Shown one piece after another: positions 34,877-39,077 of a stretch of 39,108 nt of DNA (its first letter is position 1; each line of letters opens with the position of its first letter). The DNA comes from Candidatus Omnitrophota bacterium (GTDB lineage: Bacteria; Omnitrophota; Gorgyraeia; 2-02-FULL-51-18): assembly GCA_016206805.1 (NCBI GenBank), contig JACQQX010000049.1:1-39108 (forward strand), in the 5' to 3' direction. The translations under genes and the position numbers were made by a program. Under the pieces are notes generated by a model. The model ran no database searches and had not been told where the DNA came from. It saw only the letters and a list, made by a program, of their open reading frames with translations.

Positions 34877-34950
34877 GTCATCCCGAGTAAGCGAGCGTTA
34901 GCGAGCGCGTCGAGGGATCAAGTTGATTCCTCGACTTCGCTCGGAATGAC
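34877..34950. repeat. REP-like palindrome between tpiA and secG
   Basis: GTCATCCCGAG...CTCGGAATGAC ends with inner GTCGAGGGATCAA/TTGATTCCTCGAC. Confidence 0.85.
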
Positions 34951-35068
34951 GAACCTTGTTACCGGAATGACGAACCTTATTATCGGAATGACGAACCTTG
35001 TTACCGGAATGACGAACCTTGTTACCGGAATGACGAACCTTGTTATTGGAATGACGAACCTTATTACA
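34943..35068. repeat. 21-bp tandem array, 6 copies, GGAATGACGAACCTTRTTAYN
   Basis: Units start at 34943, 34964, 34985, 35006, 35027 and 35048; first 8 bp identical to the adjacent REP terminus. Confidence 0.97.
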
Positions 35069-35078
35069 GGAGAATAAA

Positions 35079-35471
35079 GTGACTATTGTTTTGATTGTAT
35101 TGCATGTGATCGCGTGTTTGGTGTTGATTTTAGTGGTTCTTTTGCAGGCCGGCCGTGGCGGCGGGCTTTCGGATATGGCGGGTGGCCAGCCCCAAAGTCT
35201 TTTTGGAACACAAACCAATGCTTTTATGACGCGCGCGACCGAGATCTGCGCCGTTGTTTTTATCATCACCTCTCTCTCGCTAGGCATTGTTTCGACGCAG
35301 CGCGGCAAGTCGCTCGTGGAAAAAAGGCGTTTAGCGGAAACGGTGAAGCAAAGCGCGCCGGTTATCCCAGCAGCGCCGGCTTCCACAGAAACTAAGACCC
35401 AAGAATCAACGCCGGCCGAATCAGTATCCACTGAACTGACAACACCGGTTACTGAAGGCGCCAACTCTTAA
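35079..35471 (+). CDS. secG: Preprotein translocase subunit SecG (GTG start)
   Basis: VLIVLHVIACLVLILVVLLQAGRGGGLSDMAGGQPQSLFGTQTN; SD AGGAG at 35068-35072. Confidence 0.93.
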   Translation: MTIVLIVLHVIACLVLILVVLLQAGRGGGLSDMAGGQPQSLFGTQTNAFMTRATEICAVVFIITSLSLGIVSTQRGKSLVEKRRLAETVKQSAPVIPAAPASTETKTQESTPAESVSTELTTPVTEGANS

Positions 35472-37073
35472 TTGTCATTGCGAGGCCCGAAGGGGCGAAG
35501 CAATCTCTGCGCAAAAATCGCTTCGCCGCTATCGCTCCTGGCAATGACGTTTCTTTTTTCTTCCACGCCTTATGCCGATAATTCCGGGGACGCCTTTGTC
35601 ACGGCTTCTATCGCCGAGCCTTCCAGCCTCATTCCCTTATTTGCTTCCGACTCCGCATCCGCGCAGGTTTCGCGTCTGATATTTAACGGCCTTGTCAAAT
35701 ACGACAAAGATTTAAATCTTACCGGAGACTTGGCTGAGCGTTGGGAGGTGGAGGAGGGCGGCTTTTTGATCACCTTTCATTTGAGAAAAAATGTCCATTG
35801 GCAGGATGGACAACCTTTTACATCGGCCGATGTCGCTTTTACCTTCGAAAAACTCAAAGACCCCTCGACACCTACGCCTTATGGCGGTGATTTTGAAAAG
35901 GTGGAGTCTCTTGAAACCCCCGATGCTTATACGGTCAGGGTGCGTTATAGGGAGCCTTTTTCGCCGGGGCTTTCCAGCTGGTCGATGGGTATTTTGCCGA
36001 AACACCTTCCTTTGCGGTCCCGCGCTCCGGTCGGCACGGGCCCTTATATTTTGAAAAAATGGGTTAGCGGGGAGTATTTAGAGCTTCACGCGAATAAAGA
36101 CTATTTTGAGGGGGAACCGTCCATTGCCCGGACGGTTTATCGGGTGATTCCGGATGAGGCAACCGCTTTCTTAGAGCTCCAGGCGGAAAATATCGATTTT
36201 CTCGGGCTTTCGCCCGTCCAATTTAAGCGCCAAACCGACACGCCATTTTTTAAATCCACTTACGTGAAGCACAGCTTTCCCGCTTTTTCATACGGCTATA
36301 TCGGCTACAATTTCGAGAACCCGTTTTTTTCGGATAGGCGGGTGCGTAAGGCTTTGGGCCTGGCTATCCACAAAAAAGAAATTATCGATGTTGTTTTATT
36401 GGGCCGCGGCAAAGTGGCCACCGGGCCCTTTCTCCCGGGAACCTCGGCGTTTAATCCGGCCGTTGAGCCGTCCCCATTTGATCCTGTCCAAGCCCGCGCG
36501 CTTTTAGAAGAGGCGGGTTGGCGTGACACGGATCATGACGGGTTTTTGGACAAAGAGGGAAAGCGTTTTTCTTTTACCCTGCTGACCAATGTCGGCAACA
36601 ATGAAAGAAAAATGGCCTGCGAAATCATTCAGCGCCGGTGGCGGGATGTCGGTATCGATGTCCGGATCCAGGTTTTAGAGTGGAGCACGCTTTTAAAAGA
36701 ATTCATCGATAAAAGGCGCTTTGAGGCGGTGCTATTAGGCTGGCAGCTTTCACCGGATCCGGATCTTTACGCTATTTTCCATTCCCGAAAGACAAAGCCC
36801 GGAGAGTTTAATTTTGTTTCCTATAAAAATGCAGAAGTAGACCGTCTGATTGAAGAGGGGCGGCAGATTTTTCCTGAAGAAGATCGCGCAAAAGTCTATC
36901 ACCGGCTGCATGAAATCCTAAGCGACGAGGAGCCTTACACATTTTTATTTGTACCGGAGGCTCTTTTTGCCATTCATAAGCGTTTTCAGGGAGTAGAGCC
37001 CGGCGTCGCGGGGATAGGGCACAATTTTATCCGTTGGCATGTTCATGAAGATCAAAAAAAATATAAAGTATAA
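35472..37073 (+). CDS. ABC transporter periplasmic solute-binding protein, family 5 (peptide/nickel type); TTG start possible at 35472
   Basis: FVTASIAEPSSLIPLFASDSASAQVSRLIFNGLVKYDKDLNLTGDLAERWEV; HLRKNVHWQDGQPFTSADVAFTF. Confidence 0.93.
   Translation: MSLRGPKGRSNLCAKIASPLSLLAMTFLFSSTPYADNSGDAFVTASIAEPSSLIPLFASDSASAQVSRLIFNGLVKYDKDLNLTGDLAERWEVEEGGFLITFHLRKNVHWQDGQPFTSADVAFTFEKLKDPSTPTPYGGDFEKVESLETPDAYTVRVRYREPFSPGLSSWSMGILPKHLPLRSRAPVGTGPYILKKWVSGEYLELHANKDYFEGEPSIARTVYRVIPDEATAFLELQAENIDFLGLSPVQFKRQTDTPFFKSTYVKHSFPAFSYGYIGYNFENPFFSDRRVRKALGLAIHKKEIIDVVLLGRGKVATGPFLPGTSAFNPAVEPSPFDPVQARALLEEAGWRDTDHDGFLDKEGKRFSFTLLTNVGNNERKMACEIIQRRWRDVGIDVRIQVLEWSTLLKEFIDKRRFEAVLLGWQLSPDPDLYAIFHSRKTKPGEFNFVSYKNAEVDRLIEEGRQIFPEEDRAKVYHRLHEILSDEEPYTFLFVPEALFAIHKRFQGVEPGVAGIGHNFIRWHVHEDQKKYKV
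35474..35549. repeat. REP-like palindrome overlapping the 5' end of the SBP coding sequence
   Basis: GTCATTGCGAGGCCCGAAGGGGCGAAGCAATC...GATTTTTGCGCAG-type interior...CTCCTGGCAATGAC; ends GTCATTGC / GCAATGAC. Confidence 0.85.
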
Positions 37074-37147
37074 GTCATTGCGAGAAGCGAAGCGCCGAAG
37101 CAATCCATGCAGAGATTGCTTCGGCCGCCGAGCGACCTCGCAATGAC
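37074..37147. repeat. REP-like palindrome between the SBP stop codon and the permease start
   Basis: GTCATTGCGAG...GAAGCAATC...GATTGCTTC...CTCGCAATGAC, starting at the base after TAA. Confidence 0.9.
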
Positions 37148-37149
37148 AC

Positions 37150-38139
37150 TTGCTTATGATTAATTATTTTTTAAAACGAACCTTAGGTCTTGTTCCTCTT
37201 TTCTTGGGAATCACATTCATCAGTTTTGTCGTGATTCGCCTGGCGCCGGGCGGCCCCGAAGACGCTTATTCCCAGATGAATCCCAAGATGACGCGTCAGG
37301 CCGGGGAAAAATTGCGGGCGCTGTATGGCCTGGATAAGCCCATTCTCACCCAATATGGAAACTGGTTGCGGCGTGTTTTGCGTTTGGATTTTGGGACGTC
37401 TTTCAAGGACGGGGAGAGCGCTTTCGGTAAAATAGCGCGCGCGATGCCGATAACGCTTTTTTTAAATTTGCTGACGCTCTTGATCATTTTGGCCCTGGGG
37501 GTGCCTTTGGGAGTTTATGGCGCCGTGAGGGAGGGGAGTTTCGGGGATCGTTTGTGGTCGGTGCTGGCCTTTGCCGGTTTTTCATTGCCCACATTTTGGG
37601 TGGCGCTGCTTTTGATATCCCTTTTGGGGGTTCAGTGGCATATTTTGCCGGTCTCAGGTTTGACGTCACTATTTTTTGACGAGATGTCTTTTTTGGAGAA
37701 GGTTTGGGATTTGTCGCGCCATTTAATTTTGCCGGTTTTTCTCTCGGCGCTCACAGGGCTTGCCGGTATCTCGCGTTACGTGCGAAGCCATATGATCCGC
37801 ATCCTCAAGGAAAACTATATTCGCACGGCGCGGGCCAAAGGCTTGCCGGAGCGTGTGGTGATCTGGCGCCATGCCATGCGAAACGCCGCTTTGCCACTGG
37901 TCACTCTTTTGGGGCTTTCGATTCCCGGGCTTTTAGGCGGCAGCGTTATTTTTGAATCCATTTTTTCTATCCCCGGGATGGGGAGGCTTTTTTATAATTC
38001 GGTTTTTGCCCGGGATTATCCGGTGATTATGGGGATTTTGGTGTTTGGGGCTCTCTTAACAATGATGGGCAATCTCCTGGCGGATCTAGCGTATGCCGTT
38101 GTGGATCCCCGCGTTCGGCTGGGAGCCAGGTCCCGATGA
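37150..38139 (+). CDS. Oligopeptide ABC transporter permease, DppB/OppB type (ATG 37156 also possible)
   Basis: VIRLAPGGPEDAYSQ; YIRTARAKGLPERVVIWRHAMRNAALPLVTLLG; FSIPGMGRLFYNSVFARDYPVIMG. Confidence 0.95.
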   Translation: MLMINYFLKRTLGLVPLFLGITFISFVVIRLAPGGPEDAYSQMNPKMTRQAGEKLRALYGLDKPILTQYGNWLRRVLRLDFGTSFKDGESAFGKIARAMPITLFLNLLTLLIILALGVPLGVYGAVREGSFGDRLWSVLAFAGFSLPTFWVALLLISLLGVQWHILPVSGLTSLFFDEMSFLEKVWDLSRHLILPVFLSALTGLAGISRYVRSHMIRILKENYIRTARAKGLPERVVIWRHAMRNAALPLVTLLGLSIPGLLGGSVIFESIFSIPGMGRLFYNSVFARDYPVIMGILVFGALLTMMGNLLADLAYAVVDPRVRLGARSR

Positions 38140-38918
38140 GTAAACTATTACCCCTAGCCTGGTTTATTTTTTTAGGCGGCATCCTTTTGGCCGCGCCGTT
38201 TATGGTGGAGCGGTCTGTTACGATGGATTTTACGCATGTGCTGGAGCCGCCGGCTTGGCCCTATCTTCTGGGAACGGACTCCTTGGGTCGCGATCTTTTA
38301 AGCCGTCTGGTTTGTGGGGCGGGCATTTCGCTGGGTGTCAGTTTTTTGGCGGTTTTTGTATCCATCGTTGTCGGCACATTGTTGGGGGCGCTGGCGGGAT
38401 ACAGAGGGGGTTTGATGGACCGCGCCGTGATGGCGTTTGTGGACCTCTTTCTTTGTTTTCCGGTTTTCTTTCTTATCCTGGCCGTTGTCGCTATTTTGGG
38501 ACCCAGTATCTGGAATATCGCCGTCATCATAGGCCTCACCAGCTGGATGGGGACAGCCAGGCTCGTGAGGGCTGAAGTGCTTTCCCTTCGGGAGCGCGAG
38601 TTTGTTCTGGCGGCCCGGGCTCTGGGCGCGGGACGCAAGCACCTTCTTTTTCAACACCTTATCCCGAACGCGATGGGGCCTGTGTTGGTGAATGCGGTGT
38701 TAGGCATCGCCTCAGCCATCTTGATGGAGGCAGGTTTAAGTTTCCTGGGAATAGGAGTCCAGCCGCCCGCTCCCAGCTGGGGCAATATTTTGACGGATGC
38801 CAAAGCGACGCTGGGAGTTGCCTGGTGGTTGGCGCTTTTTCCGGGGCTTATGATTTTTTTCACCGTGCTTTCGGCCAATTTACTTGGCGAGGAAGCCCAA
38901 AAGAGATATCACCTCTAA
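38136..38918 (+). CDS. Oligopeptide ABC transporter permease, DppC/OppC type
   Basis: LLGTDSLGRDLLSRLVCGAGISLGVSFLAV; EFVLAARALGAGRKHLLFQHLIPNAMGPVLVN; SFLGIGVQPPAPSWGNIL. Confidence 0.95.
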   Translation: MSKLLPLAWFIFLGGILLAAPFMVERSVTMDFTHVLEPPAWPYLLGTDSLGRDLLSRLVCGAGISLGVSFLAVFVSIVVGTLLGALAGYRGGLMDRAVMAFVDLFLCFPVFFLILAVVAILGPSIWNIAVIIGLTSWMGTARLVRAEVLSLREREFVLAARALGAGRKHLLFQHLIPNAMGPVLVNAVLGIASAILMEAGLSFLGIGVQPPAPSWGNILTDAKATLGVAWWLALFPGLMIFFTVLSANLLGEEAQKRYHL

Positions 38919-38981: not shown

Positions 38982-39077
38982 TGTCATTTCGAGGTCGCAG
39001 GCCGAGAAATCCTCTTTTAATGGAAATGGGGCTTTTTTTATGGGATTTCTCGGTCGCCGCGGCGACCTCGAAATGAC
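38982..39077. repeat. REP-like palindrome with perfect 17-bp inverted ends
   Basis: TGTCATTTCGAGGTCGC / GCGACCTCGAAATGACA; inner CCGAGAAATCC / GGATTTCTCGG. Confidence 0.92.

Follow-up and report, generated by a model that had tools for sequence, protein, structure and literature searches.

The pyrBI attenuator of E. coli is an intrinsic terminator that lies within a translated leader ORF, and the position of the ribosome can allow read-through (PMC4824070). Terminators located within the first 100 bp of an E. coli coding region are efficient, and ribosomes that finish an upstream gene suppress a terminator situated a few base pairs downstream of its stop codon (PMC4824070). Premature terminators and attenuators at the 5' end, such as riboswitches, T-boxes and similar elements, have been surveyed (PMC2965389). 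Palindromic DNA can also be a part of coding sequence. Rickettsia palindromic elements (RPEs) are mobile palindromes that have inserted into unrelated protein genes without breaking the reading frame (PMC10969869), and REPs within genes are already known (PMC3733652). In-frame palindromic repeats, REPs in genes and terminators in leader peptides have thus all been described, whereas no published case of a conserved terminator that codes for a signal peptide was found in the open-access literature.

The locus described here belongs to a Candidatus Omnitrophota bacterium, in which the gene for a peptide-binding SBP follows secG. The signal-peptide codons of this SBP gene probably serve also as the attenuator hairpin of a transporter operon, and a REP has probably taken over the hairpin in the DNA under study. 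One stretch of DNA appears to stand under two independent codes, an RNA hairpin and an export signal, across an uncultured phylum. As in pyrBI, the terminator is inside an open frame, presumably translated, and in 97 of 100 loci a start codon lies upstream of it. The leader ORF of pyrBI is separate, however, whereas here the frame runs into the SBP without a stop and encodes the regulated protein's own signal peptide; the element is not known to include a sensing step. In the 5' attenuators, too, most of a gene or operon lies behind the terminator, but they precede the first start codon, whereas here the stem and the U-run are themselves codons, and no Rfam family matched in 14 loci. RPEs are similar by layout, since repeats of this genome stand in frame in ORFs that stay open (the SBP gene and loci L035, L048 and L051). 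Unlike RPEs, the REP is about 55-80 bp long, mostly extragenic, and positioned in a signal peptide where relatives carry another palindrome.

The secG-SBP junction

The window is the whole stretch of DNA that was analysed, 39,108 nucleotides of contig JACQQX010000049.1. Its relevant features are listed below. Terminators were scored by the d'Aubenton-Carafa d, which is calibrated on E. coli and is applied here to Omnitrophota hosts.

35079..35471, + strand: secG, the upstream gene; stop TAA at 35469-35471; Pfam PF03840, E=3.5e-19
35472..37073, + strand: peptide-binding SBP gene; TTG opens the frame right behind the secG stop; Pfam SBP_bac_5, E=3.9e-89
35474..35548, + strand: REP palindrome, 75 bp; in-frame translation SLRGPKGRSNLCAKIASPLSLLAM; fold -38.5 kcal/mol
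35550..35564, + strand: native T-run TTTCTTTTTTCTTCC, coding for FLFSS; the REP, the G at 35549 and the T-run form a terminator-like unit, d=16.3
35472..35576, + strand: candidate signal peptide MSLRGPKGRSNLCAKIASPLSLLAMTFLFSSTPYA; cleavage predicted before the Asp at 35577 from hydropathy and charge
35544..35546, + strand: in-frame ATG at the REP end; an unlikely start, without a basic n-region and without a Shine-Dalgarno sequence
37074..37147, + strand: second REP copy, beginning 1 base past the SBP stop and preceding a permease gene
37156..38139, + strand: ABC permease gene (BPD_transp_1), profile match
38136..38918, + strand: second ABC permease gene (BPD_transp_1), profile match

The SBP gene has an uninterrupted frame of 533 aa that extends to 37073, and the Pfam profile SBP_bac_5 is matched with 299.8 bits against a cut-off of 32.4. 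An earlier note on this DNA had placed a REP in the SBP frame with no stop and had put the opening TTG, at 35472, on the base after the secG stop (35469-35471). Both statements are correct: the palindrome occupies 35474-35548 and the frame continues to 37073. The note's description of the SBP as 'lipoprotein-type' does not apply to the window protein, which has no lipobox Cys, although many orthologues do have one. A chimeric assembly at the REP is unlikely because the order of secG and the SBP gene across the REP is the order found in relatives.

The second REP copy (37074-37147) stops roughly 8 nt short of the permease ATG at 37156, leaving no space for a usual Shine-Dalgarno sequence outside the repeat. 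Other repeats are present in the window. A palindromic repeat of another type (GTCATCCCGAG...) lies between tpiA and secG, at 34877-35065, and is followed by several short direct repeats, GGAATGACGAACCTT. An inverted repeat of the GTCATTTCGAGG type is found near the window end, at 38983-39077.

Overlap of terminator and signal-peptide codons in relatives

Orthologues were gathered from searches of 59, 292 and 193 genomes, from named GTDB genomes and from the surrounding stretches. Removal of duplicates left 138 distinct Omnitrophota loci with secG directly upstream. A terminator with d>0 was found in 100 of the 138, and 97 of these terminators lie within the open SBP frame; the loci are related to each other, and the counts are therefore not independent. 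The layout is that of an intrinsic terminator, a stable stem-loop followed by a U-run, and it is present in the window as well (d=16.3). For example, the codons ATG TTA AAA AAA ATA CCG CTT CTT GCG GTA TTT TTT TTG (MLKKIPLLAVFFL) comprise a hairpin and then a T-run. The signal that is typically encoded reads K-K-I-P-L-x-x-A-V-F-F-L.

In 97 of the 100 loci the SBP frame runs uninterrupted through the hairpin and has an in-frame start codon ahead of it, whereas the two remaining frames are open in 38 and 18. Only 8 loci offer a plausible start for a signal peptide on the downstream side of the hairpin. It is therefore unlikely that the hairpin lies in a UTR ahead of the true start. Only GTG or TTG, and no ATG, is available upstream in 21 of the 97 loci, and a clear Shine-Dalgarno sequence is present in only 38.

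The main evidence for selection on the nucleotides themselves comes from a null model, in which synonymous codons were resampled from each gene's own usage in 60 rounds. The resampled sets had in-frame terminators (d>0) in 6.2 loci on average and in 12 at most, compared to 97 of 138 observed. With d>20 there were 68 loci observed and 1.1 resampled. The T-run also goes beyond the synonymous expectation (nT of 5.09 versus 3.62, with 3.83 as the maximum of the means), and so does the A-run upstream of the stem. These tests rule out the hairpin as a by-product of hydrophobic codons. In the same stretches, in-frame overlap occurs in 6 of 713 other same-strand gene pairs, compared to 48 of 73 secG-SBP pairs.

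The stem covaries. In two groups of sequences, both picked for scoring as hairpins, 4 of 8 and 6 of 8 pairs have changed on both sides. The covariation score was matched by none of 500 shuffles and falls sharply in slid controls. Several of the compensatory pairs are non-synonymous in both arms, as where S/P faces I/V. Because the sequences were chosen as hairpins, covariation is treated as supporting evidence next to the synonymous test.

The trait is spread over many families and also occurs in another class of the phylum (genomes G293, G297, G298, G302 and G304). The hairpin is missing from L002 and L004, the two nearest relatives of the window gene, and from whole families (f9, 0 of 14 loci; f18, f43 and f45), so it is dispensable. 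None of the 15 secG-linked orthologues from other phyla has an in-frame terminator.

The hairpin might belong to secG as its own terminator, the SBP start having been pushed over it by gene packing, with no regulatory role. The hairpin sits at a median of 36 nt past the secG stop, and SBP starts frequently overlap or adjoin that stop, as would be expected if this were so. However, when a membrane transporter comes after secG, strong terminators are mostly absent (L265, L267, L272 and L274 have none, and L263 has a weak one with d=7). Among loci in which a divergent SBP follows secG, some (L271, L268 and L279) show the overlap again. In this small sample, the distribution points to a terminator that is tied to the SBP side. 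Furthermore, strong terminators appear scarce elsewhere in the same stretches, those of loci L156-L255, where 31 were found outside the SBP site and 47 at it. A terminator of secG alone is thus somewhat unlikely.

A REP at the start of the SBP gene

The palindrome in the window is a different one. The 1.39-Mb genome contains about 20 distinct copies of the REP, GTCATTGCGAGG...GGCAATGAC (35474-35548), from 43 blast hits over the two strands, and the REP pattern occurs 6 times in the window versus 0.28 expected. The REP and the T-run folded together reach -40.2 kcal/mol with d=16.3, so that the window retains the same compound structure as its relatives. The copy at the SBP start has diverged, being about 81-83% like the REP reference copy. 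Its insertion is therefore probably not fresh, yet the gene is still open.

Six of the 20 copies examined start 0-3 nt from an ORF stop, as called automatically, in addition to the secG case. This suggests that stop codons are a preferred target site of the REP, a preference that would place it exactly at the secG/SBP junction. REPs that start 0-1 nt past an ORF stop were seen in the window genome (G000) at L033, L034, L036, L039, L041 and L044. The REP resembles REP/BIME sequences with RAYT in being a short multi-copy palindrome, commonly beside stop codons, in a genome with RAYT-like transposases (four Y1_Tnp matches above the cut-off). It differs from them in that it is longer than the 20-40 bp of such REPs, is read as protein and has no terminal GTAG tag. 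GTAG was considered as a class marker and was not found at the REP ends, which read GTCATTGC. The ends were also checked against the RPE-type CGTC tag; in 8 of 13 copies, GTCATTGC has a C in front of it at one end or at both.

The candidate signal peptide of the window is a hybrid. The REP contributes the start context, the basic n-region and one half of the h-region, whereas the hydrophobic end and cleavage region, FLFSSTPYA (from TTTCTTTTTTCTTCC...), is outside the REP and native. It aligns with FLFSAPVFA of the sister gene L002 (genome G006), which is 71% identical to the window gene and groups with it at a support of 98. Both segments derive from a T-rich run, and the run at 35550..35564 has its homolog in L002, where the signal region is MRVRNRAFFLFLFLFSAPVFAS and contains no repeat. 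The proposal in the note that the signal was built from the REP is thus right for the n-region and half of the h-region, but not for the end. The comparison of orthologues that the note had asked for revealed no unrelated native signal upstream; the sister gene has a homologous signal peptide without the REP.

From the start at 35472, the candidate has an n-region charge of +4, an h-region KD of 2.02, Ala at -1 and Pro at -3; among 713 other N-termini, 160 pass the same crude test of charge and hydropathy. As had been described, the REP end contains an in-frame ATG (35544). A start at this ATG would have no basic n-region and a KD of 0.65, and it is dismissed on account of this charge and hydropathy.

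An alternative is that the REP broke the 5' end of the SBP gene, resulting in poor export or degeneration, and that the in-frame reading is luck. The h-region KD of 2.02 is at the 3rd percentile, in the lowest 3% of the orthologues, Pro is at -3, and the TTG start has no clear Shine-Dalgarno sequence, so a partial loss of export may occur. Openness alone is weak evidence, because 37 of 40 REP copies or orientations would stay open in the SBP frame. Nevertheless, the 533-codon frame is intact and conserved, the downstream permeases are intact, and the gene has remained open around a REP copy that is probably not fresh. In the SBP frame the REP family reads as a basic segment (SLRGAKRRSNL) and then a hydrophobic one (DCFATLAMT). 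When joined to the native tail, 10 of the 40 arrangements give a signal-like N-terminus, which indicates that the family is well suited to this position. Breakage of the gene is therefore unlikely.

Of the two outcomes considered in the note, a domesticated or a destroyed signal, domestication fits better, with some loss of export possible: the gene is open, the candidate from 35472 has a basic n-region, an h-region and a native end, and the signals of relatives are also palindrome-coded. Because relatives have a palindrome in the same codons, a palindrome-coded signal is normal for this SBP gene and not an accident. The note recognized the REP-coded signal and missed this wider pattern of terminator hairpins. 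The REP-containing signal peptide may support export. The REP may have replaced a hairpin, or it may have entered a gene that had already lost its hairpin, as L002 and L004 did.

Possible attenuation of the transporter operon

The first SBP codons would perform two jobs, as a Sec signal peptide in the protein and as an intrinsic terminator in the RNA. The 5' arm with its A-rich lead would give the basic n-region, and the 3' arm with the U-run the hydrophobic core. RNA polymerase leaving secG would stop at the hairpin in a fraction of rounds, and this partial termination would produce pgk-tpiA-secG in excess over the transporter. Ribosomes that are ending secG or starting the SBP may mask the hairpin and let the polymerase pass. 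In the window, a mobile REP, positioned two bases past the secG stop and before the native T-run, would supply the hairpin along with the n-region and part of the h-region. With a terminator among the first codons of a gene that begins near an upstream stop codon, the layout resembles systems in which the position of the ribosome sets read-through.

The trp and his leader-peptide attenuators employ an alternative antiterminator pairing, whereas here the complement of either arm occurs in the upstream 120 nt at chance level. Any regulation would then depend on nothing but the position of the ribosome; otherwise the element would be a fixed leak. An Rfam search with 14 loci gave no family match, and a known riboswitch or leader was set aside for these loci.

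Maintenance of the hairpin for a role in translation or mRNA stability instead of termination, by which it would tune SBP initiation or cap and stabilize the secG mRNA and the T-run would be only a run of hydrophobic codons, is improbable. In favour of such a role, the nearest start is most often 13 nt from the hairpin (19 loci), REPs have been considered as RNA elements that act post-transcriptionally (PMC3733652) and antiterminator pairing was not found in the upstream 120 nt. Against it, the T-run exceeds the synonymous prediction directly at the stem base, and a stem with a T-run is the layout of an intrinsic terminator, which a purely translational hairpin does not need.

If the hairpin is an attenuator, transcription of the transporter operon could be set throughout the phylum by ribosome engagement with export-signal codons that are at the same time the terminator. 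This extension is possible, but we hold it only tentatively. The same tentative reading regards palindromes as a natural source of signal peptides, because an A- or purine-rich 5' arm would read as basic and its reverse complement as hydrophobic; this property of the arms would have enabled the REP to replace the hairpin. It suggests a simple route from a terminator or a mobile palindrome to a secretion signal. The locus also offers a conserved natural case for studying ribosome-polymerase coupling in termination at a gene start. Of the 31 strong terminators outside the SBP site, 3 read as signal peptides, compared to 0.35 in shuffles; although the sample is small, this is suggestive of terminators in general being readable in this way.

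Palindromes of other kinds were observed in frame in SBP genes. In L017 and L168 a different palindrome separates the signal peptide from the mature protein, and further copies of it occur in their genomes; other palindromes occupy this position in L016, L140, L176 and L213. An in-frame insert with two small palindromes, WYGISKTEIPTTxNRLKSYRKAIFL, is common to the signal-peptide regions of L151 and L157, from two genomes. In L127, from another Omnitrophota genome, an in-frame half-REP (MIKKIPLLAVFFLLVSLRGSEATEAISKPAYGD) is located right behind the terminator-type signal peptide of the SBP gene. L032 was rejected as a second REP-coded signal, since its REP is in frame but a native ATG-Lys signal comes after it. 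In the window genome, L035, L048 and L051 are large ORFs with several in-frame palindromic repeats (for example, SLRGAAGAEAIS and SRAQSRDQADSS) that are reminiscent of the Rickettsia RPEs.
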